Translations under genes and position numbers: made by a program
The notes under the pieces: model-generated
Told to the model about the DNA's origin: nothing
Database searches by the model: none
The model's input: the letters and a program-made list of their open reading frames with translations, nothing else
DNA from: Anadara kagoshimensis
Taxonomy: Eukaryota; Mollusca; Bivalvia; Arcoida; Arcidae
Length of the DNA: 64,000 nucleotides
Reading direction: 5' to 3'
NCBI GenBank assembly: GCA_021292105.1
Contig: CM037869.1
Coordinates: 2,017,001 to 2,081,000, forward strand
Part shown: piece after piece, positions 19,901 to 58,575 of the stretch
Numbering within the stretch: position 1 is the first letter of the stretch
Layout of the letters: every line of letters starts with the position of its first letter

Positions 19901-22900
19901 TTAAGCTTTTGTGTTTTCGTACATTTTTGAAAAGTCTGATTCAGAATCACTACTGTCAGATTTGTTTTTGTCCAACACTGCCCGCGCCCTGTCGTAACCC
20001 CCTCTCTGCCTGTGGTCCATGCTTCCACTTAACACTGATCGTGCCCTGTCGTAAGCACCTCTCTGCTTGTGCTCCACGTTTCCATCTAACACTGACCGTG
20101 TGCTGTCGTAAGCACCTCTCTGCTTGTGCTCCACGTTTCCATCTAACACTGACCGTGTGCTGTCGTAAGCACCTCTCTGCTTGTGCTCCACGTTTCCATC
20201 TAACACTGACCGTGTGCTGTCGTAAGCACCTCTCTGCTTGTGCTCCACGCTTCCATCCAACACTGATCGTGCCCTGTCGTAGGCCCCTCTCTGTATGCTG
20301 TCCACACGTGATGTTACATTGTATGTCCCCTGTTTGCTATGTTGACTCTGAAGTGACCCACAGAGTCCGACCATACTGCTATTTGGGAACAATCGCCTTC
20401 TATATATAGCATCAAGAGATGACCGGACTGCCATCTTCTTTTCTATTCTAAAATGAAAATTTTGATCAATGTTGACATCAAATATAATCATTTACTCACT
20501 CCGTAATAATACTATTTGTCATTGGACAGTTCACTACAACAGAGTTCATGAGGTACCACGTAATGTCCTATAGGGCTATTGCGGAACTCATTGGTTCATT
20601 TAATAAGAAATAGCAGAATCTGGCACGTTTTCACAAAACAATGACCTCATATGAAATACGCAACAGCAAAGTTTGCAATAAACAATAAAAACGCTAGTCC
20701 AGCATACACTTTACCGGGCATCACATGATTCCCAAATTTGATACTTCTAAACAATTATTCAGAATCTATAACAACGAGGGTTAATTAAATAATGACTTCA
20801 ATCATCTTACAAAAGCATGAGTTCGATTCGAAGTGACATGCTTTTGGTTATTATGACTACAGGAAACACGCGTCTTGTCATGTTACCAGCGCAAGTTTGC
20901 TGCTTCTGAGGATAAAAGAACAAAAGGCGTGACTAGAAACCGCCTTAAATCACGTCAATCAACAATGGAGCTTTCGGGGTTATCGACGAAATATGCCCAT
21001 TATCAGACGTCAATTTCTGGGTAACCTTCCATGTCAAAGCATTGAAACGAGAATTGTAGATACAAATGTAAAAAATTAAAAATGCATGTTATTCGGCTGC
21101 ACATTTCTGTCTCATTTTAAACTGGGGGTTTAGTGGGCTAATTAGTCGGACTAAATAGCAATATGACTGGCTAAGAAAGCGCTGCAGACAACTGTAACTT
21201 GTACGTGTTTATTTTAATTTTAGCATAGACCTAATGCAGATTATGCCAAACCTTTCGGAACACTGATCTATGTTATCTATATTTCTCAGGGAAATCCTGA
21301 ATTAATTCGAAATCATTTGTTTTGAATCTCTAGATATTTAGCGAAATCCCGTTGATGTCGACGTATTTTAGGACATTTCATGTAAATTTGATACAATTTT
21401 TCAACTCGACAGTTTACGGAATGCTTTGTTGCATTGTTTTTGTAGTCACGTTATCTATAGTGAGATGTGCTTTATATTAAAAACGAGTTCGTGATATCAT
21501 CTACAGTCCCCCCCCCCCCCCCAAAAAAAAAAAAAAAAAAAAAATCAGATGCTAATTAATTTATTAAGCATTTACCTTGATAATCTGACATTGATCCGTA
21601 CCAATATGGGAGTTATGACTAAAACCATAAGCAATATTCCGGCTGATGCCCCGATTATGACGTATGTGAAGTCCGTGAATGGTCTGGTCTGATCTGAAAA
21701 TATAAATAAATAAATAGATAGATAAATAAAATAAAATAAGATAAAATAAAAATATAAAATAAAATAGCAGTGTAACATTTACAGTCGTTGTGAAATTTAG
21801 CACGACATTTTACAATAGAATGATGAAGTATTTCTTCAATCATTATCAACAACAGCCGCGACAACAACAACGTCATGGGACATAAGACAAACAGCCCAGT
21901 AGGACTATCCTATTTAATATGAATAAAAATATTCAACACTCAAAACAGCAACAATAAAAAAAAACAAAAACCAGCGACGACGATGGTGTCAACAAATAAC
22001 AAAACAACGATTACGACGACGAGGATGACAACAAAAACAACAACGGTGACTGTGGTATCAACCGACGACAGATACGACAAACAACAACGCCGACAACGAA
22101 AGTAACAACAACAAACAACAACGACGACGACTGTGGTATCAACCGACAACAGCTACGACAAACAACAACAACGATGACTGTGGTATCAACCGACAACAGC
22201 TACGACAAACAACAACAACGCCGACGACGAAAGTAGCAACAACAAAAAAACAACAGCAATTTATTATTATATTTTACCTCTTTTAGATCTGAAACGCACA
22301 TGGGTTAACTCAGCTGGCGAGGTCCAGTTTTCGAAGCAAATCAATTCAATTACAGTGAGTTCGTGTTCATCAGTGGTTTGTGACAAATTCTTAGATATAC
22401 AATAATTTGACATCTGCTCTTCTTGTGTACAACAGATGCAATAAACTGCAAAAATGAATATACATTATATATTGTTTCACAATTAATACGCTACTTTATA
22501 CAACGAAGCAAGCTTTTTACAAATAAATTGTTTACCAAGGAATATTGCAAGACTGGGCTTGTCACAGTGTTGTTGATAAGTATAAATGTATAATGTCTCT
22601 ATGTGAAGAATGTGTTATATATATATATATAATCATAAGCAGGAGAAGCAAGAATGTTGCTGCATAGAAAAGGAAAGTTTGCAATAGAAAAATTGAAGTC
22701 ATCGCATTTGTCGTTCAGTTTCATAGTATACAGATTATTTAAACATACTAATTCATGTCTAAATCACAATCCAGATGCAAAGTAAAAACTTGTAAACTGA
22801 TAAGATATGTTAGACTCGTAAACGTCCACCAGGGAAGCGAGGCCGGGTGCTCCGGATGGGTAAGCGCCTCCTGTTTAGCTAGCTACACCCAACGCGTGTG

Positions 22901-23565
22901 TAATAAAAATTGTGTTAAAGGAACATGGAACTATGGGACGTCAAATGTACGTATCCGAGGCAATCTTAGACACAGAGACATCAAAATTATCAACAATACT
23001 GTGATGACGGTCATAATACTTGTGAGGGCTTTGATAAGGAATGAATTAATAGAAACCTGAGCCATTGAAGACTCAGTCTTGAAACTGTAATTGTTGGTAT
23101 TACTAGTAAATTACAAAGCTTATTTTAATTTTGAAGCACTAGACGGTCGTTTCGGAAATAAAATCCCCATCAGTAGTACTCTGGCAAAACTGTGGAAATC
23201 TATATATTTTTAAGATGTTGAAAAAAGAAAAAAATATAGAAGGCCCAAAATGAACTTTACCCAATCCACACAAAACAATACTTTTAAGCATAGTTCAGGT
23301 TTTTAAAAACAATATCCAAAACTCGAGAAGCAGAAAATTTCTATGAACAATGCCTATCCCTGTTTAATACGGTTGTGTCTTTTTATAGAAAATCTAGAAG
23401 GTAGGATAATTTAGTTTTGATATTTATAACTTACAAAAGCCTCTATACGAACCATATACTTTGATGATTGACTTTGCCCCGTTACAACTTACCTTTACTT
23501 GCCAATGACAGAAGTGGTAAGTATGTAGTTATGGCAACTGCTGGAGACATAGTACCACCATCCAT
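19901..23565 (-). CDS. Predicted 301-aa single-pass membrane protein with a repeat tail
   Basis: Exons in transcription order: 23493-23565 (ATG at 23565), 22278-22445, 21576-21693 and 19901-20447. Splice sites are GT/AG, phases 1, 1 and 2 match, and the total is 906 nt. An in-frame stop precedes the ATG. Residues 1-24 look like a signal peptide (SPAVAITTYLPLLSLAS). The ectodomain (about 25-89) has a CICC cluster, two more Cys and two N-glycosylation sequons (NLS, NWT). Residues 90-111 form a TM helix (YVIIGASAGILLMVLVITP). The tail holds six 19-residue repeats around RGAYDSTRSVLDG (about 172-285) and ends in an acidic Ser-rich stretch. A cell-surface receptor or adaptor role is inferred. No family is recognised, and the Tyr repeats do not fit a canonical ITIM. 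Confidence 0.62.
19979..20300 (-). repeat. 57-bp coding minisatellite (six 19-aa repeats)
   Basis: Lies in the last exon of the membrane protein gene. The three middle units are identical at nucleotide level (for example GCTTGTGCTCCACGTTTCC on the plus strand), while the flanking units are diverged. This points to recent in-frame expansion. Confidence 0.85.
21507..21544. repeat. Poly-C/poly-A tract
   Basis: A run of C followed by a run of A just downstream of the exon at 21576-21693 (minus sense). Confidence 0.85.
21700..21770. repeat. (AAAT/AAAAT)n acting as polypyrimidine tract of an exon
   Basis: On the minus strand this reads as T-rich repeat ending TTTATATTTTCAG, the acceptor of the TM exon (21576-21693). 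Confidence 0.6.
21955..22255. repeat. ACA/ACG trinucleotide-rich array with a longer unit
   Basis: GACTGTGGTATCAACCGACA recurs at about 22049, 22129 and 22175 between (CAA)n/(CGA)n runs. ORFs in it are low-complexity artefacts. Confidence 0.75.
22495..22700 (+). pseudogene. Penelope-like RT-tail fragments in both orientations
   Basis: Plus-oriented bases at 22500-22610 (ACGAAGCAAGC, ACAAATAAATTGTTTACC) match the RT C-terminus. Minus-oriented bases at 22640-22730 (AGCAGGAGAAGCAAG, AATAGAAAAATTGAAGTCAT) match a more upstream part. This suggests nested or inverted truncation. Confidence 0.5.
22740..23060 (-). pseudogene. Penelope-like fragment, minus orientation (RT tail plus 3' end)
   Basis: On the minus strand RT-tail codons (HSIVD-like, from ATTATCAACAATACTGTG) precede GTAGCTAGCTAAACAGG and the 3' hairpin. 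It lies in the first intron of the membrane protein gene, in the same orientation. Confidence 0.65.
23134..23180 (-). ncRNA. Decayed type I hammerhead ribozyme motif
   Basis: Minus strand 5' to 3': stem I arm AGTACTA, CTGATGG (core A9 changed to G), a weak stem II, CGAAAC, minimal stem III loop GACC, GTC, then stem I arm TAGTGCT. Stem I still pairs fully, with one G-U. The core change would be expected to abolish or strongly lower cleavage. Confidence 0.65.
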
Positions 23566-29818: not shown

Positions 29819-32690
29819 TAAGGTATGGAAGCTGGAGATAACACATTGAACTCAGTGATGGCCTTGATGGAAGTCAAGAAGATGTTAGAAATTGATCCCC
29901 AGGTGTCCTTAGATGACAGGGAGGTTAGGGGATCTATCCTGGAAGAATATGTCAAGTTTATGACCACACCAGGGACTCACAATGACACATACGCTGAATC
30001 TTTCCACCGGGCATTTTTCAAAGATTGGTCAGAGGAGAACAATAGACCACATTCAGCTGAAGATCTGTTGTCCTGGAGTGAACAAAGGTATATTTCTCTT
30101 TAATACATTAAATACCTACCTACCTATCCTCTTCATCCCTGGTGGGACATAAGGCCACAACCAGTTGCCTCCACTTTACCCTGTCCTTTGCCATTCTTTG
30201 TGCCAGCCCCCAGGATAGTCCAAGGTCTTTCAGTTAAGCCTTTATAACTCATAAACATTTATGAGCAATGTTGAGTTAAGTTGAGTTTTGTAACTGTCAT
30301 TACAATGGGTCCACATTTCCATTTAACACTGCAGTTCACAACTCAACAAAACCTGTCACAGAGCCAAGAAGTTATATTTTATTACCTGAAAATGTTGTCT
30401 CTTTTTGAGATTATTAGTTCAGGACACATTCCTTGCTGATCCAATCATTCCAGTGGAGCTCACCAGTGTACCATTAATCAATACCTCTTCACATTTTGGA
30501 AAATGTTTACTCTGAAATTTCCTACAGTAACATCTTGGTTACTGGAAAAGATAAATTGAAGCAGATTCCATCTTTAATAGGAATAATGGGAATATTGAGA
30601 TGTGTTCCGCAGAAACTTTATGGGGTATCAGGTGGTACACTGGCGAACCTAATTGACAAAGATGGAAGGTACCTTAGTGACTGAGTGGACTTTAAGTACA
30701 GACTTACAGATCATCCTGCCTCTCACCAATTAGTTTTGAATCCAAATCTTAGTTAACTTGCTGAAGGTTAGTAGTTTTTCTCCAGGAACTCCAGTTTGCT
30801 CCACTATCCTAGAAACGCCCTCTCAATATTATAGCAAAAGTATAAAATGGGACTTGAATAACTACCACCCCCTCAACAAAGGTCACTGGTGACATAATGT
30901 GAAACTGTTTTAGAGTTACTGTTAGAATACTTTAGTAATGACCTTTCATAAATGATTGTCATGGCAACCTATACTATTCTGTTTTATGGAGAATGGTTTA
31001 AAACTTCTGATTTTAATGCTATGTACAGATGGTCACTGTATGTATAATTCTGGTAAGGTTTACATGTTTTTCTGTGACTATAACTTATATAATATTTAGT
31101 CTTCATTATCGAGCTATGGTGACCAGCAGTTGTTCATTTATTTTCAGGTTTACTACTAAGAGTAAAGGTCATTCTGATTCCCAGTTAGTCGTAATTGGTG
31201 CTTTAGTTCCAGCTATCCCTTGGATCCTTAGAAATGCGCACAAGTCTGAAAATGAATGTGCTCGAGGTGCAATAGAATTCATTAAGCTGACCCACCCTGA
31301 ACCATCATTAGTTCCATTTATAGATATTTATGCCAGGCTGTTACATAGTGTTTTAAATGGAAATGATTTACCAAAAGAAATCCTGAAATTTCTTAGTCAC
31401 TCAGAACTTGGTGGACCATTTAAACGAGAAATGGTTTTGGGATTATTAGAAAAAGCAAACAGGTGAGGTATTGCTTTTCATAAGAATAAGTTGTCTGTTA
31501 CATTTCTGAAAATTAAAAATAATGCATTGGTATTAATTTATTTTCCTCCAGAACATTTTATTCTGTGTACCAAATTATTCTATAATTCTATGAATGAAAC
31601 TAAAGTTATGACAAAAAAATTCTCCAAATAATAAAACAAGATGTCATTTATATTTATTTGTAGTTATAAAAAAGGATCAGTTGAGAGACTTAAGTTTTAC
31701 CAGTCAGTGACAATGAAGCTAGGATCTGCATGTTATATTGAAGGGGCTCTTAGCAGTATGTTGTTCCTAGCTTTAGAATTCCATGATGATTTTGAAGGAG
31801 GGGTTCTGGCCAATGCTAACTGTGGAGGTAATATTCATGTTTATAATTGCAACACGAGTGCCAGTTTTTCTCCATATATAAATAAGAAAGAGAAACCTTA
31901 GTTTGATAAGTAAATTACCTCAGACATGTTCTTATTTCTAATTGCAACATGAATTTAAGCATTTATCTACGAATAAAAAAAAGAGAGACCGCATTTTGAA
32001 AATGAGTTGCATGTAAGACATGTGACATGTTTATTCCCATTGCCAGTTGTGGCCAAAAACTACAAAAAGATCCTTCACTCATATTGAGCCAGTTCTGGGA
32101 TGGTAGAGGAAACAGGATCCGGTGTACTCAGAGAAAACCATTACCTTCATTCAGTGACTTTTCAAACTTAAATACACCGTGATCTGTTTTATGTGATTGT
32201 GACATTTTAACCTTAGCTATCTTTTCAGCTTGTGGAACCTGAATAGAGTTGAAACAATTTTTACTTGAATGTTTGTTAAATACCATGCAATAAGTTGGCA
32301 ATTTCAGTTGTTGATAGTAGGAATTGACATTTACCATGGCTACATAGTACATATGTATCAGCTACCTGTCTGATCTATAACAGGCATTGATATAACCCAT
32401 GGTAGCTTTGGTCTTAAATGTTCAAATTTTGAACTAAAGATTTTTGAAGATCAAAATGTTAAATGTATAGAAGTGAACCACCTTCACTTACAACTGTTAT
32501 CTAATTCATAATGACATACACTTGTACTTATTTTACAGGAGAGAATTGTCACCGTGGTGCGGCATTAGGGGCTTTACTAGGGGCTGCCGCAGCAAACAGA
32601 GGAGGGGAAGTACCACAAAAATATAAAGATGGCCTCAATAGTAGTAAAAAGGATTTGTTACAAATTACTAAAGAAATGTCTTCATTATGA
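25786..32690 (+). CDS. ADP-ribosylglycohydrolase / J1-crystallin superfamily protein, 479 aa
   Basis: Seven coding exons: 25786-26018, 26628-26821, 27329-27445, 29823-30087, 31148-31462, 31664-31827 and 32539-32690 (TGA). All are GT/AG, all phases join, and the total is 1440 nt. The core starts near residue 80 (SLQKAKEEALWGMCVADAIA), equivalent to the family's first helix. HYHQGMEAGDNTLN (about 178-191) sits where enzymes carry an Asp-Asp-Thr metal site. NCGGENCHRGAALGALLGA (about 426-445) matches the C-terminal GGD.D...G signature, with N-C-H in place of the Asp pair. The first exon adds a hydrophobic, Ser/Arg-bearing leader (VSFFAVYLFSKF) that may target an organelle or membrane. Known enzymes of this fold cleave ADP-ribose bonds using Mg ions; altered or lost activity is inferred. 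A start at 26632 (400 aa) is possible. Confidence 0.85.
27406..27840 (+). repeat. Tandemly repeated exon end plus splice donor (about 6 units)
   Basis: Units of 69-83 bp start near 27406, 27484, 27560, 27636, 27705 and 27788. Each has the last roughly 40 bases of the exon ending 27445 plus its donor and first intron bases. Unit 2 is nearly identical to unit 1. GT dinucleotides of the unit donors lie at 27446, 27523, 27599 (GTAAGT, the best consensus) and 27670; units 5 and 6 have lost theirs. Confidence 0.85.
27965..28300 (+). mobile_element. Near full-length SINE in intron
   Basis: A box AGGTAGCTCAGTTGGTAGC, B box GTGGGTTCAAACC, body TTGTTCTTTCACCAAGCACT, GGCATGGCATGTTAAAGAAC and TTGCCCTGAGTGCAAAGG, in the order of the 4532 copy. 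Same strand as the host gene. Confidence 0.7.
28405..28870. mobile_element. MITE-like region with direct repeats, paired TGACGTCA and a hairpin
   Basis: A TCTATCTATGG...CATAGATAG motif at about 28408-28432 is repeated at about 28695-28716. Between them are two perfect TGACGTCA octamers (28627-28634 and 28652-28659). Then comes a strong hairpin with arms TTGACTCGACATT (28813-28825) and AATGTCGAGTCAA (28846-28858). This may be one element or two adjacent ones. Confidence 0.45.
29692..29820 (+). repeat. (TTTA)n microsatellite forming an exon's 3' splice region
   Basis: About 125 bases of TTTA repeat run up to the acceptor AG at 29821-29822 of the exon 29823-30087. No ordinary pyrimidine tract separates them. 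Confidence 0.9.
30715..30870 (+). repeat. SINE fragment (second type) in intron
   Basis: AACTTGCTGAAGGTTAGTAG and CTCCAGGAACTCCAGTTTGC match the body at 4890-5100, diverged. Confidence 0.45.
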
Positions 32691-35250: not shown

Positions 35251-36772
35251 AGTTAACTGTAATCTCTGGTTTTATTGGAGTTGTTAATCAAGTTACATAA
35301 AAAGGCCCAGTGAAAAAATTAAATCTCCACATCGCAAAAATCGATGGTCGTTCTTTAGTCTAAAAATCAAACTAGTTATAAAATAAAATAATGTCAAAAT
35401 TGCTAAAAATGATAAGTTGATTTTTTCCGGTATTTATTCATACATGATTTTAAATATCAAAAAATAAATTTATCTTAATTTTACTAAACACCAAAATTGT
35501 ATAATCCGTGAATTGATATTTTATGTACCGTGGTATTATTATTGTTTGATCGTTACAATCAACCGCCTGATTTACGAGAGGCGGCATTTTCAGTCGGCGT
35601 TTTAATGGACTGAATTATTAAGCCGGTCTGTGAAGTTTATAGCAAGGCAAAGTAATTTAATGCCAATATACCCATTATTGGCTGTTTGATATTCTTGTTT
35701 TACGATCTTTGAAATACTACTGAACAATCATGTATTTGGCTTTTTTAACCGAATATCTCATATTACTGGTTACTTTATGCGTTTGTTTTTAAATTGTGTT
35801 TTTATTGGTTGACGGATTGTTTGTCATTCATTGAGAAATTAAAGCCCTTCTCTCACCAAACAACAATAAAACGTGATTTATATCCCAGAAATTTATCATT
35901 CTCGACCAGAATGTTCATTAGTTTAGAGTTAGCTACGTCTTTATTCAATTGATACTCTATTTACATGTCCCTTTTAAGCTAGAAATATGAGGAATTCGGC
36001 AATTAACGGTTAATATAGACGGTAGTTGGAATTCTTTACCGGATATTGGCAGATCTACTAATTGGTCCCTTAGATCAATTTCACTCCATAAAAAGGGCAA
36101 TCAAAAAAGACGTTCTAAAGACTAAAATTCCCTTGCTAAAGAGTGATCTTGTGTATACGCCCTGTTTTCTTTGAGGAAAGAATACATTGACAGCAATGGG
36201 AATTGGACTATTGTTCATATACGCAGCTTTTAAATTGCAAGTGAAAACATAACAATTGTTATCGTAAACAGAAGTCCAGGTGTTTTTGTTCCAAGATGGA
36301 TTACCTTTCAGGATAAACATTTTGTTAACATGGTGATTTGTTTAACTTTAATTCAATAAAATTTAAATGTTCAGCTAATATATGAGTTGTCGCTACACAA
36401 GTAAGTTTCTGTTAAATTTAGACAACACTTTTGACTCTTAAACAGAAATAAACCACGACAAAGAGCCTTGAGTGACAAAGTGTGACTGCCTTTGATCCAG
36501 CCCATTCATATTCTAATTATAAATAAAATAAAGAAAACTGAAGATGACGCATAATTAAAAAAAAATCTTCTTATCAACAAACGTATGTATAATTGAAAAA
36601 AAACCTTCAAATCAACAAACGTTCATTCTGGAAAACAATAGAATGGCATGTTTTATATATAGAAAATACTGTTTGTCGGCGAGTTGTAACTATCTGTGTA
36701 AAGCTGGTTTAAAAGTAATGTAATGAAAATTCCATGTGCGTATTTTCCCATTATTTATTTTATTATTACATA
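35251..36772. other. Intergenic, nothing recognised
   Basis: AT-rich. Short ORFs lack protein-like composition. Confidence 0.35.
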
Positions 36773-37018
36773 TTATACCAGTGTTAATTTTACAGCACTA
36801 GACGGTCGTTTCGGAATACAATTCCTCATCAGTAGTGCTTGGACCAAAATTATGAACAAAATAAAAATTAAAACATAAACAGGTGTCACTATGTTAACTC
36901 TATCTGTTGCACTTAACGTGGTTAGAGATCTAGTATCAAAAGCCAAAATACGACTTTCTAATTGGGCATCATTACACATTGTTTTACAGCGGTTAGACCT
37001 TTTATTTCTGTCGATCAT
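36773..37018 (-). other. 81-codon ORF that runs through the hammerhead motif
   Basis: Starts MIDRNKRSNRCKTMCND, has a hydrophobic stretch VYVLIFILFIILVQALL, and its last 20 or so codons are the ribozyme itself. It may be a chance ORF in a small retroelement or part of that element. No family is recognised. Confidence 0.25.
36794..36840 (-). ncRNA. Type I hammerhead ribozyme motif, intact core
   Basis: Minus strand 5' to 3': stem I AGCACTA (36839-36833), core CTGATGAG (36832-36825), stem II GAAT-TGT-ATTC closed by G-C, CGAAAC, a minimal stem III closed over GACC, GTC, then stem I TAGTGCT (36800-36794). All invariant core bases are present. The predicted cleavage is after the C at 36801. Known context: minimal-stem-III type I hammerheads occur in Penelope-like elements and metazoan retrozymes. 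Confidence 0.88.
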
Positions 37019-37213
37019 TGCCGGACGGTGTAGATGGGAATAAACTTATTTTAAAATTACAATATTTGAAACTTTCAAAAATTTCTTACGGTATAATACA
37101 AACGAAAAACTTAATAAGTACATCTATTTCGACTTTTGTATAGTTTAGATTTCGTGACGTGGTCTTAATAAAAAGATTAGATTGAACTACTTCAAAATAA
37201 CAGTGTAATGTGA

Positions 37214-37315
37214 TGATTTTGAATTTTTATGATTTAATTAATGCATTTAAAATCAGCACATGACAACTGATTTTGAATGCATTATTTTAATAAAAATTCA
37301 AAATCAACACATGAC
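37214..37315. repeat. Nested palindromic MITE-like repeat
   Basis: Outer arms GATTTTGAATTTTTA / TAAAAATTCAAAATC enclose inner arms AATGCATT..AAATCA / TGATTT..AATGCATT. Each half ends CACATGACA. Confidence 0.6.
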
Positions 37316-38194
37316 AGCAGTATTGGAAATTTTCAAACTGATTTGTTTCATTTACGGTTTAAAACGGTAAAATTGAACAAATTTTACTTTTGAAACTAGT
37401 TTTATTTAGTTTACTGGATTACTGTTGTACCTATAAGTAAAACATTATTGAAAACTCAACCTGCTGTTACGGGGAATATTTAATGTAAATTGGAATAACT
37501 TATCCCTTTAATTTTAAAAGGAAAACTTGCGGGGAACCAAAGAGCGTATTCTTCTCCGCTGTCAAATTATGTCCAATTAAAAACCATACAATATGTCCAC
37601 TGGGAGTCATTCGTATTCGGTTCTTGTTGGGAATTTGATTGAATAACGGCAGAATGGGTGCTGTGCCATCGGTCTAAATACGATTAGCTTAGCGAATAAT
37701 GAATCGTATTTACTTAGCTTATTTATATATTTTTTAAAACTGATTCGTGATAGATCGGGGATTGCATAACTTACTACTATCTCGATGATTGATGATTATT
37801 AGATGTTATGAAAGTAACCAAAATTTTACTCGGCAGGCGGCACCTTAACCCATTCACATTTAACCGTTGTTTAAATAAAGCGGTAAGTTTTTTTTCTTTC
37901 TAGTAAAGTATGCAATATAAACGACAATGTTCGAGGCTCCATCATGTACCTACATATATGATTATTTTACAATTCCTAAAAAACTTAAGTTATGCTTCAT
38001 CGTCCAAAGTATTGCCGTAGGTGGATTTGGTGAAATAAATTTTGGTACTTATATTTTTCTCTTTTTAACATCTTAAACGTATTTTGGATTTCCAGCTTTT
38101 GATTCGGGCACTATTAATAAGGATTTTTATAAGGAATTTTATTCCTAGTCTAGTACTGAAAAATTAAAACAGGTTTAGTGGTTATCAAATACAA

Positions 38195-38320
38195 AATATT
38201 AACTTGGGTTATTATTACAAGCCTAGGTTTATCCAGACCATAAAGCAGTTTTATGGCCTTCATTATAACATTTTGATGAAGTATTATATGTCTCCGTATC
38301 CCATAATAGTCCAGTCATTC
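38195..38320 (+). pseudogene. Decayed Penelope-like RT-tail fragment
   Basis: ACAAGCCTAGGTTTATCCAG, GTTTTATGGCCTTCATTATA and ATGTCTCCGTATCCC match KPRFIK..FYGRHH of the intact RT tail with frame damage. Confidence 0.5.
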
Positions 38321-39172
38321 TACGGGGGAAAATGGCCAAACCTCCAACTAATTGCAACAAAATTTATTTTATGTGTATTGGTTATTTTAGAGTCTATATT
38401 TTAACATATCAAAATTCGAATTCATTCGGATAAGTGGAACTTGTTCAAAATTTTGAATAAAGACAAGCTATGTTCAATTTTCATAATCGTTTTTTCACTT
38501 TCATTTCAGACAAACATAGAACAATACAATGCAATTGTGTTCATATTTTATACTTGCATTCAAAAAAATTTATAGACAGTAGTACAAACGTGTTAAAAAC
38601 AAATGTTATTTCTAATATATACCGGAATTATGGCCCGTACGGTCACAAAGCGCGCGGATTGGGGGGGGGGGGGGGGTGAGCATATGCGTTTTCTACCTTG
38701 CTTGAATATATTGATTAAGCGTGTAATTGATAATGAATTATTATGTAATTTCAGCCAATGTACTTTGAATAGGTGATCAAACATGCTGATTGGTAGACCA
38801 CTTATTATTATCTCAGCGAACGTTTAGGAACAAATCAGCGATTATCAGTGTTATTTTTAAATTTGCAATATTTTAGGATCTCTTCTGTACTTAGTTATAT
38901 AAGCATAACCTGATGTTAAACCCAATCTATGATAGACTCAGATAAAAACGAATATTGCTCATCATTGTCACATTTTTGGGCGTATAATGAAATAAATGTG
39001 CAACCTTATATAAGTGTAACAAATATATGAGTATGATACCATATACAGGACGTAGGGATGATGCATTGTTTGATAAAATAAATGTTTCTTCAAATGTTTG
39101 GTACAGACATTTTGTGATGGTAACTATCCCCAAAAAGTAATTAAACCACAACACATCAGTTTCCTGGGCCAT

Positions 39173-39610
39173 TTAAACATCTTCTTGCAGATCAGAATCT
39201 ATATCGGCTATAACAGAGGAATTTGAACAACTTGTACCATGACATTCACCACACCCAAGTGTGCATTCCAAACCATGTCGTCTACAATTACACCTTCTGG
39301 TATCACAACTCGTTTTACAGCCACATTTTATAATTTTTAGTAGTGAATCTGGAGCTGCAGGCTTATTTGTTTTTATGGGTACAAGTTTGTCACCATTAAG
39401 GCACCATCCCCAGTCAGTTGGATCTAAACTGGAATCTTGTATCCACTGTTGTACTTGTAAATAAACCCGCATACAATGAAAACTAGCTGCAGCAGATGTA
39501 GGGGGTAATGTTTGAACTTGAACATAAGTTTTGCTCGTTGACACTTTATTAGTAAACATTCTTAGTCTCAAGAGATCAAGACCCTCAAATGGAATTCCCC
39601 ATAAAGGCAA
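39173..39610 (-). CDS. Transposon ORF 4: CXC (tesmin/TSO1-like) domain
   Basis: The ORF opens at a TTG inside the nuclease ORF and is best read as that protein's C-terminal continuation (FEGLDLLRLRMFTNK onward). It ends in a Cys-rich block IKCGCKTSCDTRRCNC followed by LECTLGCGECHGTSC. This spacing matches the DNA-binding CXC motif of tesmin/TSO1/LIN54 proteins, single copy. A DNA-binding role in the transposon protein is inferred. Confidence 0.7.
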   Translation of the reverse strand: MPLWGIPFEGLDLLRLRMFTNKVSTSKTYVQVQTLPPTSAAASFHCMRVYLQVQQWIQDSSLDPTDWGWCLNGDKLVPIKTNKPAAPDSLLKIIKCGCKTSCDTRRCNCRRHGLECTLGCGECHGTSCSNSSVIADIDSDLQEDV

Positions 39611-40707
39611 GATATGGACTCGGTGCCAGCTCTAATTACTTCCTCTTTTGATGAACACTGGTAAAATACATTTGCTTGTTCTTTCAGATAAGGGCTTGCT
39701 TTGATTTTCTTGAGAGCTGGCTTTTTTCCTATCCCATATAATCTAGAAGTAGTGTCACATCCTGTAAGTGCGTGAATAAATGGCAAATATAAACAAAGTT
39801 CCTGACCAAGTACGGTTTTAGTTTTGTTTATGTCCCATATCTTCATGTTTTTACCCAGGAAATGGTTTGGATGCGACATGAAATAAATATTATGATTCTT
39901 TATATCAGCATGAAAGCAAAGTAAAACAAGAAGGTCAGTATCTTCACCTATTAAAATTGTATCTTTTGACACAGAACTTTCAACAGCTGCTTGTACTATG
40001 AGAACGTCTGCGTCTGCCGAAGCATGTCTGGTAGCAAATCCATTTTCCTGGAGGTGATCACTGAGGATGTTAATAAAGCATTGCTTGTTTTCTGTGTTAC
40101 GAAGGAAAACCTCCTTTTTTATTTTACATGGAGTGGACTTTGTAAATTTCACTGATGGCGAGACCTTTCCTTTGCACCTACGGATATGCGTTACAGATTT
40201 TGTAGTTTTTGTGTTTGAATACCCGTCGAAGACGACAACGGTGTCAGTATTCTTGTACCTCTTACAAAGAAAATCAAGATATTGTTGACAAATTCCACCA
40301 AATGTGGGCCTTTCCCATGGTATCCGTTGAATAAGTGAACCTCCATCAATCACGTAAGTAATATCACATTGAGGTAGTTCACTCGGGGAACAATCTCCCA
40401 TAGACCAAATTGCATTACTCAGCAAGGGTTTCTGTGCCTCTCGAAGAAGTCCTGACGTTTCAAACAGTGATGATGGCGATGAACATAGTTCGTATGAAAA
40501 TATATTTGGCATGTCAGCAGCTATTCTATCTGCAGCTGACACAAGGCGTTGAAACAACAACTGCGGATCTATTTGAACGGGTTCTCCATCAACTTTAATT
40601 GCAGTTTTACTCATCATATTCACAGCCTGGTTATTTTTTGAACGAAAAATCCACCACTTTTTTACCCTCCATAGACTGCAATATATCACTGCCAACTTGC
40701 CTTGCAC
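39568..40707 (-). CDS. Transposon ORF 3: XPG/FEN-like nuclease domain
   Basis: About 379 codons; the part before MMSKTAIKVDG (near 40615) is an out-of-frame reading of ORF 2. Acidic motifs spaced as in PIN/XPG-FEN nucleases are YVIDGGSL, VVVFDGY, ASADADVLIVQ, IGEDTDLLVLL and ALTGCDTTSRLYGIGK. The last resembles the helix-hairpin region after the active site. These Asp residues would bind two metal ions in known relatives. The ORF ends by a frame change in a G4 run near 39600, where ORF 4 continues. Confidence 0.75.
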   Translation of the reverse strand: MQGKLAVIYCSLWRVKKWWIFRSKNNQAVNMMSKTAIKVDGEPVQIDPQLLFQRLVSAADRIAADMPNIFSYELCSSPSSLFETSGLLREAQKPLLSNAIWSMGDCSPSELPQCDITYVIDGGSLIQRIPWERPTFGGICQQYLDFLCKRYKNTDTVVVFDGYSNTKTTKSVTHIRRCKGKVSPSVKFTKSTPCKIKKEVFLRNTENKQCFINILSDHLQENGFATRHASADADVLIVQAAVESSVSKDTILIGEDTDLLVLLCFHADIKNHNIYFMSHPNHFLGKNMKIWDINKTKTVLGQELCLYLPFIHALTGCDTTSRLYGIGKKPALKKIKASPYLKEQANVFYQCSSKEEVIRAGTESISCLYGEFHLRVLIS

Positions 40708-43024
40708 TGTCCACGTTAACCATTTTCTCTGCAGCTACACCGGAAACAATATTTCGCAACTCGGTGTCTTCAATAAACGGATTTTTATCTTGTAAAAACG
40801 ATAGGACTTTAACGGTGTCTGTTTTGTCTCGTTGTTTCCTTGATTGTGAACTTTCTTTGTGTTGTTCACTAGTCTGGTACTCTACACCAGTAACTTGTTG
40901 CAGTGCATTGTTGTAATCAGCACATATGGGCATGGATAACAGCCACTGTGCTCGCTGAGATTCTGTGATACCTTTTCCCCTTGTCATTCCACCAGTTGTT
41001 TTTACACTTCGCATTAGCACCTGCTCAATGATAAGGTCTGCTGATAATCCACCCCAAAACTTATCAGTGCGTCTTAAAACATGATGGCCTTCCATGAAAA
41101 ACCTATACACGTCCGGGTGGTCTTTAGATAGTTGTAGCATTGTCTGTAAGTAAATGTACGACGACTTTAGGTATAAATTGTGCCCAGACGCGGCAAAGAA
41201 TGGTAGCATAGCTTGTATACATTTCAGGTGCAATGTCCAGTCCCCAGTTCTTTCTGCTTTCAGAAATGTTCGCAATAAATCGATCATTTCCATGTATTGT
41301 AACCAAAGAGATCCTGTTCTATATTTGGAGACTGATGTCTTTTCTATATTAAACCGTTCTTCCACCTTTTGCAAAATATCATCGATAAACACGGTGTTTA
41401 AAGGTGTATCTCCTTTCAAAACATTATCAAAACAACTGACAATATATTTATAATCTTCATCAGGTCCAATAGAGTCAACTGAATCTTCTAGAGTGCTAGG
41501 GTCTTGTGTTCCTGCTATCTTTTGTGTTAGTTGTCTATCGGAAGAAGCAGGCTCGGTCAACTCAGTATCCATATCGTCTACATTGATGTTATCTGTATCT
41601 TCTACATTTGACAAAAGAGGAACATTGAACAGCTTTGAAACAAGCAAAGAATTTAATGCACTGTCAACTATCATGTGACCTCTAACAGCTCTAGCAACTG
41701 ACTTTCCAGTTAACATGTAATCTACCGCATTCCCTGCGTAAATGCATTCTAAAACCTCACGCAATCCAGATCCACTCATTATGTACCCGACAGACCCCAA
41801 AAAACTCATTTCTAAATGAAATCCTCCTAGCTTAAGAACGATCTTGCTAATTTCACTTTCTGTTGGTTCAGAATGCATTACAGTTAATGCCTTCCAGTAC
41901 AGAGGCTGGTCAAATGTAATGACTGGTGTCGTTGCATACTTCCGAGACTGCAAACAGACGTATCTCAATGTAGAATAAATGCAAGAAGTGTCGCTGGGGT
42001 TCATATCTATCATAGGAAGAAACACTATAGAAGATTGTCCGGGATAAATGCCATGTCGAACCATCTGCATTAAGCCAGACCAACCGGGCCTAAGTGTTTT
42101 AAGTGGCCATGATATTTTCCATAGGAAATCTAACTTTGAGGTTTCATCTGAGAGACTGCCTTCATCAAGCTTCTGAAACACTAATGATGACATTCTATCT
42201 TCCTTTGGCATAAAGTGATAAATATTTATCTTTCCAAGTGCTGTAATCTCTTCTTTAGTTACATTTACTCTCCTAACTTGCTTTTCAAACTCGACTTTAG
42301 GGGTTATACCTACAATTATGCCCATACCATGAAATGTGTTAAAACCGTCCAGAGTTCTGGTATTATGATCTACGTTGTCTGCAACATATTGTGAAAAGTG
42401 ACCTGACGTGAACCCAGGAATGTCTGTTTTCATACTCATTGCTGAACTACTTTCAAATTTCTGCACTTCGGTATAAGATGAAGAAAATCCCATACTATTC
42501 AATGTGTCAATGAGGAACTTAGATGCAAAGTGGTGATGCATCTGCACTGCAAGACCAATCTGTAATGGGACGATTAAACCTCTGGGTCGTGTTGCCTGCA
42601 CTATAGCTTGACCAATGGCTGCCAATTTAAAATCGGAATCTTTCTCACTTAAAAGTGACTTTAACAAAACCTTTAATGTATTGGGTAGGTACGCAACGTT
42701 ATCATTAACGGATGCAATAGTTGAAGATGTTGGGTAATATTCTTTGGAATCTATTATTGATTTTATGTCATTTTTAATAAGTTTTGCTGCAGTTTCTATT
42801 ATACTTGTTTTTTCTGCCTCGTCATCTTGGTTTTTGGGACGATCATAAAATCTTTGAAGAATGGAAGATGCAGTGCTTTTAAAGGTTACAATATTTGATT
42901 TACCGTTAATTGCTGTTATGAGTATGGATTCTCCAAAATGCTCTTTCAGCCTGCGTTTCATGTAACTTACACTGTAAGCTTTATCACCACATATACCACT
43001 CATTTTATCAACCAAATCCGACAC
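40631..43024 (-). CDS. Transposon ORF 2: transposase-like core, 797 codons
   Basis: The largest ORF of the window. The listed start is a GTG inside a longer open frame that continues upstream to the zinc-finger ORF, so it is not a real start. Conserved-looking blocks are YVADNVDHNTRTLDG (about residues 213-227), VITFDQPLYWKAL (about 368-380), GGFHLEMSFLGSVGYIM, VARAVRGHMIVDSALN and LPFFAASGHNLYLKS. The Asp residues of DNVDHN and TFDQP and a later Glu are candidates for an RNase H-fold DDE site (inference). It ends at a T5 run near 40650, after which ORF 3 carries on. Confidence 0.75.
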   Translation of the reverse strand: MSDLVDKMSGICGDKAYSVSYMKRRLKEHFGESILITAINGKSNIVTFKSTASSILQRFYDRPKNQDDEAEKTSIIETAAKLIKNDIKSIIDSKEYYPTSSTIASVNDNVAYLPNTLKVLLKSLLSEKDSDFKLAAIGQAIVQATRPRGLIVPLQIGLAVQMHHHFASKFLIDTLNSMGFSSSYTEVQKFESSSAMSMKTDIPGFTSGHFSQYVADNVDHNTRTLDGFNTFHGMGIIVGITPKVEFEKQVRRVNVTKEEITALGKINIYHFMPKEDRMSSLVFQKLDEGSLSDETSKLDFLWKISWPLKTLRPGWSGLMQMVRHGIYPGQSSIVFLPMIDMNPSDTSCIYSTLRYVCLQSRKYATTPVITFDQPLYWKALTVMHSEPTESEISKIVLKLGGFHLEMSFLGSVGYIMSGSGLREVLECIYAGNAVDYMLTGKSVARAVRGHMIVDSALNSLLVSKLFNVPLLSNVEDTDNINVDDMDTELTEPASSDRQLTQKIAGTQDPSTLEDSVDSIGPDEDYKYIVSCFDNVLKGDTPLNTVFIDDILQKVEERFNIEKTSVSKYRTGSLWLQYMEMIDLLRTFLKAERTGDWTLHLKCIQAMLPFFAASGHNLYLKSSYIYLQTMLQLSKDHPDVYRFFMEGHHVLRRTDKFWGGLSADLIIEQVLMRSVKTTGGMTRGKGITESQRAQWLLSMPICADYNNALQQVTGVEYQTSEQHKESSQSRKQRDKTDTVKVLSFLQDKNPFIEDTELRNIVSGVAAEKMVNVDSARQVGSDILQSMEGKKVVDFSFKK

Positions 43025-43050
43025 GGAAATAAGGTCATCATAATTGTCTT

Positions 43051-43653
43051 CTAAATGACCACCACTTCTAAAAATGCACTAGATGCAGTAATGTCAGAAG
43101 GTCTTCCGATTTTGTAAGGGGTGGGCACATTCTGAAAACCCTGTGGAACATTCTTAAAAGTTCTAAAATTTACACTACATGTTTGGTGATAAATAGCATC
43201 AGCTGCATGGAGGTCGTTTACAGATTGTATTCTACCTCTGACTTCATCAGCCCATGTATCTTTCCGTTCATCACAAAGATGCTCAATAGTTTTCTGAAAA
43301 TCAAAAGTTCTTACTGGATGAACATCATAGCCTCGTTTTTTGTTACATAATCTTGCACTTTTACCACACAAGAAACAATGTTTATCAAATTCAAACTTTG
43401 TGGTTGTTGAACGCAATTGCGGTACTTCATTTTCTGAACTATCAGACTGCAATGACCTAAGGTGAGACTGGATTGAATGCTTGTTACAGTAGTCACGGCG
43501 ACAATCAGTATGGACATATTGCCCAGCATTAGCATGTAAGCTGTCCTTACGTGTTGCACTGGCACTGTTTATACTAACACAGCCCTTCTCTGTTAGTTTT
43601 GATACTAAATGTCCATCATCTATCGTCTTGTGGCAAATGATACATTGTTCCAT
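43051..43653 (-). CDS. Transposon ORF 1: N-terminal Cys/His zinc-finger region
   Basis: A 200-codon ORF from ATG 43653. Metal-binding pairs: CIICH near the start, HTDCRRDYC, then CFLCG and a late H..C (IYHQTCSVNFRTF), a two-module Cys-rich finger probably used for DNA recognition. It ends soon after TASSAFL, at a T5 run where the frame of ORF 2 takes over. A separate protein is unlikely. Confidence 0.7.
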   Translation of the reverse strand: MEQCIICHKTIDDGHLVSKLTEKGCVSINSASATRKDSLHANAGQYVHTDCRRDYCNKHSIQSHLRSLQSDSSENEVPQLRSTTTKFEFDKHCFLCGKSARLCNKKRGYDVHPVRTFDFQKTIEHLCDERKDTWADEVRGRIQSVNDLHAADAIYHQTCSVNFRTFKNVPQGFQNVPTPYKIGRPSDITASSAFLEVVVI

Positions 43654-44985
43654 TTTCCAGTGCCAAAAAAGCTGAAAGACAAAAGGTTATTCATATTTTT
43701 AGTATTAGTTTAATGCCCATTTATTTGAAAATAACCCAGGAAAAACACTAATATTAAATAAAACAAAAAATTAAAATAAAGTTAAATAAATTTTGAAAAC
43801 AATTAAATAATTTTCTTGAAACTTTACACATATAAATCGTTTACATTTTATAACTATAAATTTTAAAAAATTGTTTTTGGTCATAATTAAAAGAAAATGC
43901 ACTTACCTATATTGGCAGTAAAAGCCTGAATTGTCAATAACTCAAAAGGTTCCATAATAAAAATCATAAAATTTAATACAACATAAAATCAAATCTGCAA
44001 ACTAAAATAAACAAAAAAATCATTAATTGTTAAATAATAATAAAAACAAATAACTACAGTAAAATAGTAACTGAAGAAAATAAGTCAAATCTTGATTCTT
44101 GTAATTCAACTTTAATTAAAAATACACAACACAGTGTTTCAACTTTCAGGTAAGCGCATATGGTTTTAATGTATACATCGGTGTAAACGTTTATTAAATG
44201 CCAATTACTGTACTAATGCATGTACAACCTTAATAATGAGGAATTGATACGAAAAAGTAAAAAAATCCCGAGTTTTGCATGTTTGCGTTATGACGGTTAT
44301 GCGCTTCCATACTTTTTTTTGGTGACAAAATTCTGTTTGCATTATATATTGTACCATATATGATTTAAAACTAACGACACGGCAATTAATAAATATATTT
44401 GTTATTTTGTCATTGAAAATTGTGTTCTTTGATGCGATAACATTTTCATAACATCATTGCATCAACCGATACATGTGATCACCGCACCCCCCCCCCCCCC
44501 CCCCCGGTCGCGTTCAATTTTGTAAACAAATGTATGGCGTGTGTATTTTTAACCATATTCACATTGGAAAAAGGCTAATAAACATTAACTTTAAACAAAT
44601 TAATAGTGTTTGTACCTTGTCATTCTATTTTCTTGAAATTAAAATAGTTTTTAACCGTTTCCGATGTAAACAAAACATTGAAGAGTTCCACTTGACTTGA
44701 CAACATTGTACGGGGGCCTATTGATGGTCATAATAAACACAGGCCATTACGACATTTTTCAGACGCAAATTTTCCATATTTCCACCCATTCGAATTTTTT
44801 CGAATTTTTACACAATGTTTGTACCATCGTTAAGGACTCATACCATAAATATCATTTTTGTTGCAATTAGTTCAAGGTCAAAATACAGAATGACTGGACT
44901 ATAATAGCCTAGATATACTTGACGTCCCATAGTACCATTTTTCTTTAATTCCCAAATTTAGTTATAGACGTTACTGGTTATCTAG
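43654..44985. other. Non-coding flank 5' of the transposon gene, with a C19 tract
   Basis: AT-rich sequence probably holding the element's promoter and end; 44487-44505 is a C19 tract. The element border was not resolved. Confidence 0.4.
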
Positions 44986-45469: not shown

Positions 45470-46640
45470 GTAGCCATTTCGTATATTAACATTAGTTATT
45501 TCATATTTTTCGGAATACTATATGTCGTACATTCGCAATAGCTATTTCAAATATTCGAATTATGATTTCGAAAAATGGAATATTTATTTCAAATATTCGA
45601 AATAGTTATTTTCGTTTATTTTGATTAATTATTTTCTATTTTCGAAAAAGTATTTCAATTTTTCGGAGACTATTTTCTATATCCGCAAAAGTTATTTGGT
45701 ATATTCGCAATGGTTATTTTGGTTTATTATATAATTTATAAATTCCATCTTTATGATTGGATAAAACGGTAACACGTGACCATTGGATCTCACATCATAT
45801 ACCACGGATTTTCCGGTGAATATCAAATTCGGTGTACGTCATCGGTTTTTGTTGACGTTCTCCGTAAAATGATTAGAACGTCATCAATTAAGTGTACGCA
45901 AGTGATTGTGTTTTGTTATTTTTTTCATAGAACGTTGACGTTATGGCATTATCAATTAACAATGTAGTTTGTAATTGATTGTGTCTGGAATGCCATTTAT
46001 TTTTTCATAGAATCAGACTTAAAAAGTCACATTGATCTAACTAATGTGGGATAATTTTAGTGTGATCAACCAGGATGGGCAGGGAAATCTAACATCGGTA
46101 AAGTAGTTAGATTGCCTGGTCACAGGTTTGAGAAAACATTGTCAACCGAAGTGCCAAAGTGGCTAAATTATATAATAAAACAGTTATGGACTTTTTAGTG
46201 GTTGTATATGGTGTGATATTCACCGGAAAAATAAATATTGACCTCGGCTGTCGCCTCGATCAATATTTCTTTTTCCGGTGAATATCACACCATATACAAC
46301 CACTAAAAAGTCCATAATTGTATAATATTCACAATAGTTATATGGTGTTTTCTCAATAGTTATTTCGTATATTTGCAAAAGTTATTTGGTATATTCGTAA
46401 TAGTTAAATGGTGTTTTCACAATAGTTATTTGGTATATTCGCAATAGTTATTTCGTATATTGGCAATAGCTATTTGGTACACCATAGTTATTTGGTATAT
46501 TCGCAATAGTTATTTGGAATATACGCAGTAGTTATTTGGTATATTCGCAATATTGTTTAGTATATTTGTATATTCGCAATAGTTATTTCAGTGGTGTATA
46601 CGCAGTAGTTATTTGGTATATTCACAATAGTAATTCAGTA
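45470..46640. repeat. 22-bp-type tandem repeats surrounding a 134-bp palindrome
   Basis: Degenerate units of AGTTATTTGGTATATTCGCAAT occupy 45470-45725 and, about 14 times, 46325-46640. Between them lie unique sequence and the palindrome at 46184-46317. Confidence 0.7.
46184..46317. repeat. Near-perfect long palindrome (64-bp arms)
   Basis: Arms begin TTATGGACTTTTTAGTGG and end CCACTAAAAAGTCCATAA, with only a few mismatches and a loop of a few bases around CTGTCG. It looks like a foldback MITE. Part of the arm (TTTTCCGGTGAATATCA) also occurs at about 45808-45824. Confidence 0.85.
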
Positions 46641-50295: not shown

Positions 50296-51359
50296 TATTT
50301 TGCACATTCGTTATTTTATGTCGCAAGTAATGTAAATGTAAAATTAAGAACAAGATGTGAGTTAGAGGTATTTAGTGAGGAGAAAACTAAGAATTCCTTC
50401 CCAACAAAATAATTATATACTGTTATATTGAGTCACGTGTGGAATTCTGAAATTTTTATTAAGAATATTGCAGTAAGTTTGCATACACCATGCAGATGCA
50501 TAACATAGGTGATAATTTTATACACGGCAGTATTTTTCCGTTTTGATGCACGACCGGGGAGACAAGACAATTACAGGCCCCGGATGGAAGGCTCGTGATA
50601 AAGTTACAGGAGAACGCTTCATGCAAATAAATAATTATCATGTGCTGCAATGTCAGCACGTGCATGAAAACGGAACTATTAATATTTAAACAGCTTTACA
50701 GTGGTCACGTGCATGTTGTATGCAGGCATGAAAATTATTTTCAATATTTTTTCAGTGACACATTTTGTATGAAGGTGTTTGTAAGAGCACGTGTATGTCA
50801 GACATATTTATGTGTATACGTTTGTGTAACGCAAAAGATAGTTTTTACACAGAAAAACACAACTATTATTCGTCAATACCGACGTCAATTACACTCGATG
50901 TATTTTCTCTCTAAAAGTATTTATATTATGATCTATTTGTTGACTTATTCACTACCATTTTCTTACTCTGTATATGTAGCTTTTGTGTATTTATCTAAAA
51001 TCGAATTAATTTCATGCAATATGTTATACCCAACGCAATGATAGATTTCAAAGTGTAAATCGCCATTTTCAGTAAGGTTATTAGGTCATGCTTCCTGGAC
51101 ATCTGATCCATGGCCAGTTGTTCAAAGAACAGTTTGCTTAACCAAATGGTTAAATAGTTAGGGAGATTGGAAAATATTATAAAATGTTTTTTTTAATTCG
51201 TTTATTTTTGTATTTTTTATTTTTGCTACACATTAATCGTTTCTTTTTATATAAGCAATTTTATGCATTAATTTTGGAACACAATTTTTGAAAAATAATT
51301 GAAATAAAGGATACTACTGATTCCTCAAGTTCTGCTTCATGGTTAGACTTATACATCAA
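50296..51359. other. Intergenic, nothing recognised
   Basis: Contains a 133-codon ORF (50640-51041, plus) of low-complexity composition that is not accepted as a gene. Confidence 0.35.
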
Positions 51360-54282: not shown

Positions 54283-54400
54283 CACGTGCTACTTTTGAAC
54301 TTTTATGAAATCATACATTCAAAAGTAGCACATGGCAATTAATTGTTATGGGCTACTTTTAAATGTATTATTTCGTAAAAAGTCAAAAGTAGCACGCGAC
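54283..54400. repeat. Two adjacent palindromes, MITE-like
   Basis: CACGTGCTACTTTTGAA (54283-54299) pairs with TTCAAAAGTAGCACATG (54318-54334). A second pair, GCTACTTTTAAAT / TCAAAAGTAGC, spans 54352-54399. Confidence 0.65.
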
Positions 54401-57259: not shown

Positions 57260-58575
57260 ATCAAAAACAAACATACTAATCCATGTCCAAATCACAATCC
57301 AGAAGCAAAGTAAAAACTTTGGAACTGACAAGTTAGGTTAGACACGTAAACTTCCACCAGGGAAGTGAGACCGGGTGCTCCGGAAGGGTAAGCACCTCCT
57401 TTTAGCTAGCTACACCCGCTACGTGCGTAATCAAAATTGTGTGAAAGTAACATGGAACTATGAGACGTCAAATATATCCAGGGCAATCCTGGACACAGAG
57501 ATATCAAACTTATCAACAATACTATGATGACGGCCATAAAACTTTTTGAGGGCCTTGATAAACCTAGGCTTGCAATATCCCTGAGTCAACAATTTATTTG
57601 CAAGCAGCCTACTTCGTTGTACAAAGTCACCGTAGTGGGAACAAGCTCTACCATAGCGTATTAATTGGGAAACAAATACACCATAAGCAGGAGAAGCAAG
57701 TATATTGCTGCATAAAAAAGGATAGTTGACAATAGAAAAATTGAAGTCATCACGTTTGTCATACAGTTTCAAATGTAGCCTTTCGTGTGCGTCATAATTC
57801 AGGTATAAGTCTAAATATGAAGCAGAACTTGAGGAATCAGTCGTGTCTTTTATTTCAAGCTCACTAGGATAGATGACATTTACATAGTCTCCTTTAGGAT
57901 TGTTAAGAGACAGAACGTCATCTATATATCTGTATGTTGAGTTGAATGATTTGGCGACAGTCTTCTCTCCAGATTTAACAAGGTTCTGCATAAATTCTGC
58001 TTCGTAAGAATAAAGAAACAAATCAGCAAGCAATGGTGCACAGTTTGTACCCATTGGTATACCGATTGTTTGCTGAAAAACTATATTACCAAACACAACA
58101 AATATGTTATCTATCAAAAACTCCAACATTTTGTTGATGGTATCTTTAGTATATTTTTTTTGGAATACGTATGGTGCTTAACAAAATAACCAGAATCCCT
58201 GTTCAGCTCCAGGTATTTGTATCTTGGCTTACAGTTTTTGTAAAAGAAAGACAAGTGAATAATTTCTTTAAGACGTTCTTTCAATTTAGAATGAGGGATA
58301 GTGGTGTATAAAAATCAAATGTTTTTATACTTTTTACATGAGACAAAGTATTAGAAGCAAGATGTTCAAGTAATTCTTTAGAATTTTTGAGTATCCACAT
58401 TTGGTTGATTCCAGATGTAGAATATACTGACTGAAGACCATCTTTGACGATTGTCAAAATTTGTGTTAGCGTTACCGATAATGATTTAGTAGTACATTTT
58501 GATGAGCCTGCTATATATCTTTCCTTGTATGGATTTTTCGATTTTTTTGGAGTTGAGGAAGCTCGCATAGGGCAA
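57260..58575 (-). pseudogene. Best Penelope-like retroelement copy (5'-truncated, frameshifted RT)
   Basis: On the minus strand: RT fingers with PKKSKNPYKERYIAGSS and KTFDFYTPLSL (motif A) at 58281-58575; a frame-broken stretch at 58130-58280; then an intact 223-codon ORF (57458-58129) with QTIGIPMGTNCAPLLADLFL (motif B), YRYIDDVLSL (catalytic YxDD) and SYLDLYLN. After the stop comes the family 3' region ending at about 57260. No 5' part or endonuclease domain is present. Placement in Penelope-like elements rests on motif style from memory. It is the reference for all the short fragments in this window. Confidence 0.75.

Follow-up and report, generated by a model that had tools for sequence, protein, structure and literature searches.

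A type I hammerhead motif of Anadara kagoshimensis in a probable truncated retrozyme copy, and the common 3' end of its family's insertions

Introduction

The described systems closest to the element treated here are the metazoan retrozymes without long terminal repeats (non-LTR retrozymes), a class that also lacks a primer-binding site and a polypurine tract, above all that of the mussel Mytilus galloprovincialis, for which the main text of PMC7229834 gives about 5000 hammerhead ribozymes in repeats of about 350-390 bp. According to the abstract of the same paper most invertebrate hammerheads cleave efficiently and vertebrate hammerheads act as dimers; the mussel retrozymes, in its main text, are without most of the conserved nucleotides of the loop 1-loop 2 contacts. 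Here we analyse a type I hammerhead motif in another bivalve, Anadara kagoshimensis, on the minus strand of a 64,000-nucleotide (nt) stretch of contig CM037869.1 (positions 2,017,001 to 2,081,000, GenBank assembly GCA_021292105.1). This whole stretch is called the window, and its own numbering is used throughout.

Hammerheads are also found in Penelope-like elements (PLEs). The available text of PMC11167929 and PMC7761336 describes for them a minimal type I form, action as dimers, and an insertion end that lies downstream of the hammerhead, where reverse transcription is initiated internally, the so-called PLE tail. In the PLE of Anolis the start of reverse transcription is at an internal site of the RNA, on the downstream side of the hammerhead, which leaves the tail as a genomic signature, and hammerhead mutants left insertion in vitro unchanged (available text of PMC11167929). 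A third related system are the hammerhead repeats of newt and axolotl, where two copies are needed for a good stem III (PMC6155905 and PMC7229834, as far as their text was available); these come from other hosts, and the likeness does not extend to compared sequences.

It is useful to compare the Anadara family with these systems at the outset. Retrozymes of this kind are already known, in a mussel among others, and the family is a new member of them, the likeness to the Mytilus retrozyme being one of description and not of compared sequences. It differs from the metazoan retrozymes, as the main text of PMC7229834 presents them, in its unit of 338 bp with a minimal, palindromic stem III that is predicted to fold as a dimer; moreover, circular RNAs were demonstrated for those elements, whereas we infer them for the present one. 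With the PLE hammerheads it shares the minimal type I form, the predicted dimer action and the downstream insertion end, and the geometry of this fixed end recalls PLEs by analogy. In contrast to the PLE pseudo-LTR, however, the unit is a non-coding 338-bp tandem repeat with no PLE open reading frame (ORF) attached. Truncation of retrozyme copies is not mentioned in the main texts of PMC7229834 and PMC4918200, supplements aside, nor in related titles and the openings of abstracts, and we tentatively regard a fixed 3' end combined with 5' truncation as new for retrozymes. The way in which the sampled copies end hints at how retrozymes return to DNA.

Results and Discussion

The motif and the insertion that carries it

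The motif occupies 36794..36839 of the minus strand (descriptor scan; core-pattern expectation 0.01) and reads, from 36839 to 36794, AGCACTA-CTGATGA-GGAAT/TGT/ATTCC-GAAA-CGACCG-TC-TAGTGCT. Stem I has 7 bp, stem II has 5 bp with a 3-nt loop, and stem III is reduced to 2 bp (A-U and C-G) over GACC, while the core segments CUGAUGA, GAAA and TC have all core bases intact. An outer helix, AATTTT/AAAATT, could extend stem I by 6 bp, and an internal loop within stem I accompanies the 3-nt loop II. Deduced from the core, the predicted cleavage site lies 3' of C17, between 36801 and 36800 (36800..36801, minus). A preliminary description, made from the letters of the window alone, had proposed such an intact hammerhead with a minimal stem III over GACC on the minus strand, and the scan bears this out: with stems of at least 4, 3 and 2 bp it is the single full match in the 64-kb window. 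In 1.164 Gb of first-order Markov sequence searched on both strands, stems of at least 5, 4 and 2 bp gave 68 matches (0.0037 per 64 kb) and stems of at least 7, 5 and 2 bp gave 6 (0.00033 per 64 kb), rates that apply to the type I descriptor only, the preliminary description having considered many kinds of motif.

The hammerhead covariance-model check suggested in that description came out negative, as Rfam finds no hammerhead family on the window either at the gathering score or at E values up to 10. The motif resembles RF00163 (Hammerhead_1) in architecture, but the model leaves the window copy unmatched and reaches 17.9 bits, against a gathering cut-off of 34, at three of the four hammerheads of a tandem array of the same family (locus L061, see below); at the gathering score it has no match on L061, L033 or L010. 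Since the model stays below its cut-off even on the array, the silence of Rfam on the window seems to reflect a gap in the model and not evidence against the motif. A pattern scan of viral contigs gave 0 matches.

The preliminary description had also placed the motif outside any annotated element. This is not the case: it sits inside a 98-bp, 5'-truncated retrozyme insertion (36765..36862, minus) that is 96.0% identical by BLAST to the 338-bp unit of the array, to which we also aligned it base by base. If position 0 of the unit is the first base after the cut, the copy runs from position 274 across the cut to position 35 and departs from the unit by a G-to-A change in stem III, one A-to-C change in the tail and a 2-base gap. 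The tail of 36 nt after the cut (36765..36800, minus) ends at unit position 35, the usual 3' end of the family as judged by BLAST and by the ends of the sampled copies; the retrozyme tail has the sequence TATAATATGTAATT. The stretch shared by the two flanks, i.e. the target-site duplication, is only 4 nt; in the published description of retrozymes such duplications are larger than 4 bp when present. Neither the upstream block of the older copies described next nor the reverse transcriptase (RT) tail has homology above that of shuffled sequences to the 400-bp flanks of this copy, because it is 5' truncated. Carrying a single hammerhead and lacking a neighbour in tandem, it would not be expected to release a circle, and we regard it as a retrozyme relic that does not itself produce circles.

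BLAST finds two further copies in the window. The older retrozyme copy at 23123..23224 (minus) is 81% identical to the unit, and its hammerhead (23134-23181) has A9 changed to G. The most diverged copy, at 37971..38177 (plus), is 70% identical; its hammerhead (38098-38170) is decayed and has lost the GAAAC segment. A covariance model derived from the two remaining copies of the window recovers it at E 5.5e-06.

Size and organisation of the family

A 32-nt core pattern, 3 mismatches being allowed at most, has 12,519 matches in the genome (1,115,223,567 bases), 6,326 forward and 6,193 reverse, compared to 0 forward and 0 reverse for the reversed pattern; this and the other genome pattern counts below are lower bounds. 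For the part of the unit that lies 41-72 nt past the cut there are 2,517 matches. Among 100 listed places of this segment several neighbours are 338-339 bp apart, and others are separated by 321-368 or about 678 bp. The search for tandem copies 150-400 bp apart that had been recommended was thus positive, and the clearest case is the array L061, in which four hammerheads are spaced exactly 338 bp, i.e. head-to-tail units with one hammerhead each. A second hammerhead in the same direction, whole or partial, lies upstream in L014 and in the duplicate pair L019/L020.

The unit has a GC content of 0.346, and the longest ATG-initiated ORF in a tandem of it is 55 amino acids. Taken by the traits that define retrozymes, the family has an intact type I core, tandem repeats in the range of 150-450 bp (the window locus being a single fragment), a GC content below 45-50% in non-coding sequence, and many copies: thousands of dispersed copies exist besides the arrays. 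The preliminary description had suggested a small non-autonomous retrozyme or a circular-RNA locus, and this holds for the family, given its 12,519 cores, 338-bp units, low GC and lack of a long ORF, but not for the locus, which is a truncated end of 98 bp. We consider it highly probable that the locus is a non-LTR retrozyme copy of the metazoan type, truncated at its 5' side, and that the motif is its still intact hammerhead; the route by which it was copied, perhaps through a circle and in a PLE-like manner, is a separate and more conditional matter.

Ends of the insertions

The ends of family members were compared in sampled loci. An exact match to the 32-nt core served to select L001-L030 and L062-L080, and an exact match to the 32-nt segment just past the usual end to select L031-L060, L061 and L081-L100. 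All of them are on the first contigs listed (C1-C3), not spread over the whole genome, and in one batch shorter stretches were taken at 20 of 40 places, with five array places and 15 places lower on the list left out. From 137 elements we removed 13 duplicate views or segmental duplicates, 7 below 100 bits, 3 at a locus edge, the 3 window copies and 1 array already seen, which left 110; merging those with like 3' flanks reduced them further to 103. The ends are BLAST extents, accurate to a few bases.

Already in the first 30 exact-core loci homology reaches a variable distance upstream, and most copies stop near one downstream point, beyond which the flanks are unlike each other. Of the 110 elements, 96 have their 3' end 30-42 nt past the cut (84 at 34-39), and not one ends within 5 nt of the cut. 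The flank-merged set of 103 gives the same picture (90 at 30-42, 79 at 34-39, 0 at the cut), as do the elements of at least 90% identity (67 of 71 at 30-42). The 5' ends, on the other hand, are scattered, every bin of the ring being occupied in both the 110 and the 103 sets. Since 49 of the 100 loci were picked by the exact core, the segment-chosen loci are the better test of the end. In their first set, where a single array accounts for three of the 30 loci, the 3' end is at 34-40 in 26 of 30 (the exceptions are at 15, 145, 217 and 310, the one at 217 being an array that extends beyond its locus), and in the second set 18 of 20 end at 35-39 (exceptions 11 and 312). The genome counts are consistent with this: the core (12,519 places) is more frequent than a segment whose start lies upstream of the usual 3' end by about 190 nt (9,630 places), a drop with distance from the 3' end as predicted by 5' truncation, and the segment just past the end has the 2,517 places mentioned above.

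These ends suggest that the templates were continuous across the cut and were not cut linear monomers, because copies that start from the 3' end of such monomers would end at the cut, whereas no sampled copy ends there and their sequence is uninterrupted across it. Reverse transcription probably had a single, fixed starting place. The insertion end shared about 37 nt past the cut thus hints both at where it starts and at a template other than a linear monomer. Three templates would be continuous in this sense: a circle closed by ligation, a multimer that was never cut, and an RNA whose 3' end itself lies at +37. Among the 49 core-chosen loci, the element is longer than 338 bp in 13 and longer than 676 bp in 3, as would be expected of circular or multimeric templates.

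The strongest alternative to a circular template is the last of the three, in which the end at +37 is simply the 3' end of a linear RNA, made by termination of transcription or by another cleavage, and no circle is needed. Copies of long and short interspersed nuclear elements (LINEs and SINEs) also start at the 3' end of their RNA, and a fixed end alone cannot tell a circle from linear or multimeric RNA. The elements that exceed one unit, present in 13 loci, do call for a circular or multimeric template; a multimer that is linear would nevertheless be sufficient for them, and arrays may also grow by unequal exchange. We regard a linear template of this kind as rather unlikely, but as an explanation to be taken seriously.

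Folding of the ribozyme

In 63 unselected hammerheads, for which only those spanning the reference nearly whole were kept, the six letters after GAAA are CGGCCG in 33 cases and the CGACCG of the window copy in 3. The commonest stem III strand, ACGGCCGU, is together with its flanking A and U a perfect palindrome, and two family hammerheads folded without constraint give an exact double hammerhead at -34.5 kcal/mol, compared to 2 x -12.3 kcal/mol for the monomers. When the two window copies are added to the 63, there are 65 natural rows, of which 52 were spanned by the folding script and 42 have intact core strings. A double hammerhead is predicted for 22 of these 42; it is found in 20 of the 25 rows with ACGGCCGU and in 0 of the 3 rows with ACGACCGU, the window copy being among these three. 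According to the available text of PMC6466107 the dimer form requires both a palindrome in the stem III-loop and tandem hammerheads, and the array L061 has the two. Folding thus indicates a ribozyme that prefers a partner hammerhead, and this preference offers a simple reason why a circle would be stable.

A possible route of copying

We propose that the tandem arrays are transcribed, and that two hammerheads of one transcript would pair through the palindromic stem III; judged by the folds, array transcripts are probably cut in this form, as double hammerheads. A host ligase, as proposed for other retrozymes in the main text of PMC7229834, could then close the monomer into a circle, which its single weak hammerhead would leave intact. 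The enzyme of another retroelement, perhaps a Penelope-like one, would prime reverse transcription about 37 nt past the ligated junction, and the reaction would cross the junction and proceed round the ring, usually halting before one turn is complete. The window copy, which would have stopped after 98 nt, would be a dead end. The essence of this proposal is a hammerhead that acts only as a dimer and so serves as a valve, cutting multimers and staying silent in the circle, together with PLE-like priming about 37 nt past the cut that may run for up to several turns. We put it forward as a tentative possibility. If true, it would explain why circles persist and would point to PLEs as the mobilising partner.

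There are a number of observations that speak against the scheme as a whole or in part. Firstly, 14 of the 110 elements have a 3' end outside the 30-42 nt zone, at 11-29 in 9 cases and at 145-326 in 5. Secondly, 5 of the 25 core-intact copies with ACGGCCGU fail to give the double hammerhead, and the monomers are not folded best as hammerheads either: this fold has -7.8 kcal/mol compared to a best fold of -12.3 kcal/mol in the family form, and -7.8 compared to a predicted minimum of -11.0 in the window copy. Covariation among the 65 rows amounts to two pairs changed on both sides, and 180 of 500 shuffles score as high; this is expected of decaying copies, still it lends no support to the structure. 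The stability of the circular unit is ordinary as well (z -0.69). Target-site duplications are weak, a shared flank stretch of at least 7 nt being present in 24% of cases as opposed to 10% in mismatched flanks (n=76). Finally, cleavage, circles and expression are inferred from DNA sequence, and a Penelope-like enzyme is, by analogy, a candidate for the mobilising role.

Reverse transcriptase remnants and Penelope-like elements

An RT fragment with telomerase-like similarity, i.e. of PLE type, lies at 57458..58177 (minus; Pfam RVT_1 at E 0.0013, below the cut-off). Its sole PDB match up to E 1 is the telomerase RT 6d6v_A (E 0.00015), and there is no match to phage records. On this similarity it is a possible relative of the mobilising enzyme. 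Other fragments of the RT family are found at 51298-51878, 13374-13823, 22741-23037, 38213-38320 and elsewhere in the window. The family is very common, and many of its window fragments have one common 3' end and varied 5' cut points. The earlier remark that no RT is seen next to the motif was nearly right, the nearest piece, by tblastn with the RT frames of the window, being 36 codons at 38213-38320 (plus), 1.4 kb away.

At 22741-23310 and 37971-38330 a C-terminal portion of the RT family comes directly after each of the two old retrozyme copies, joined to them at nearly the same point. These junctions are perhaps a copied chimera, or else a coincidence in so common a family. A 50-bp tandem repeat of about ten copies at 3653-4155 has its match in the 3' end of this RT family.

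The position of the two older copies just upstream of RT-like sequence, amid abundant PLE-type RT debris, raises the question whether the hammerhead is a fragment of a PLE, from its pseudo-LTR, instead of belonging to a retrozyme in its own right. A stem III reduced in the same way is found in PLE hammerheads, a dimer-type palindrome has been described for them in the available literature, and PLE copies likewise end a fixed distance past the hammerhead. In the array L061, however, the whole interval between two hammerheads is the 338-bp unit without an ORF of more than 55 codons, which leaves no room for a PLE body. RT-family fragments are present in 50 of 80 sampled loci, so that closeness to RT means little. 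No PLE ORF with a hammerhead of this family turned up, although no genome-wide protein search stands behind this. On account of the frequency of RT fragments and of the non-coding unit we dropped the reading of the window copies as pieces of a PLE as our main one, and consider it unlikely in comparison with a separate retrozyme.

Three further explanations have lower standing. The repeats could be satellite DNA spread by recombination or duplication at the DNA level, with the hammerhead incidental. The exact 338-bp spacing of the array can come from unequal exchange, and some loci are segmental duplicates, but the family is found at thousands of places, and sampled dispersed copies with one fixed and one scattered end carry the mark of reverse transcription with 5' truncation; we find the satellite explanation very improbable. 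Hardly more credible, and if anything slightly less so, is that the window copy is a working, domesticated ribozyme on a local transcript. Its core bases are all intact, and highly conserved amniote hammerheads seem to act in the biogenesis of messenger RNA (main text of PMC7229834). An intact core is ordinary in this family, though, because both core strings (CUGANGA and GAAA) are kept in 46 of the 63 unselected copies, and the stem III form of the window copy is one without the double-hammerhead fold. A chance match, which the shortness of the motif and the silence of Rfam might favour, is refuted by the 12,519 places against 0 for the control and has a practically negligible probability.

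Other features of the window

Overlapping frames of 211, 815, 388 and 152 codons with a cysteine-rich end are located at 39173-43686 (minus). Pfam gives nothing above the cut-off for them (DUF6589 at E 0.01), and at a guess they could belong to a mobile element. At 10191-10236 (plus) the histone 3' stem-loop model has a match below threshold (25.6 bits, cut-off 34; E 0.0067). Imperfect palindromes of 80-90% at 54272-54410, 46180-46321 and 37204-37316 look like small inverted-repeat transposons, and the first of them matches the microRNA precursor model MIR6274 at E 3.4e-05, below its cut-off. A 145-bp tandem repeat forms two arrays, at 5570-6103 and 17058-18457, which lie 11 kb apart and are about 93% alike. 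The only cellular gene recognised in the window is represented by the exons of an ADP-ribosylglycohydrolase gene at 31017-31901 (plus; PF03747, E 4.8e-07 and 1.7e-05).
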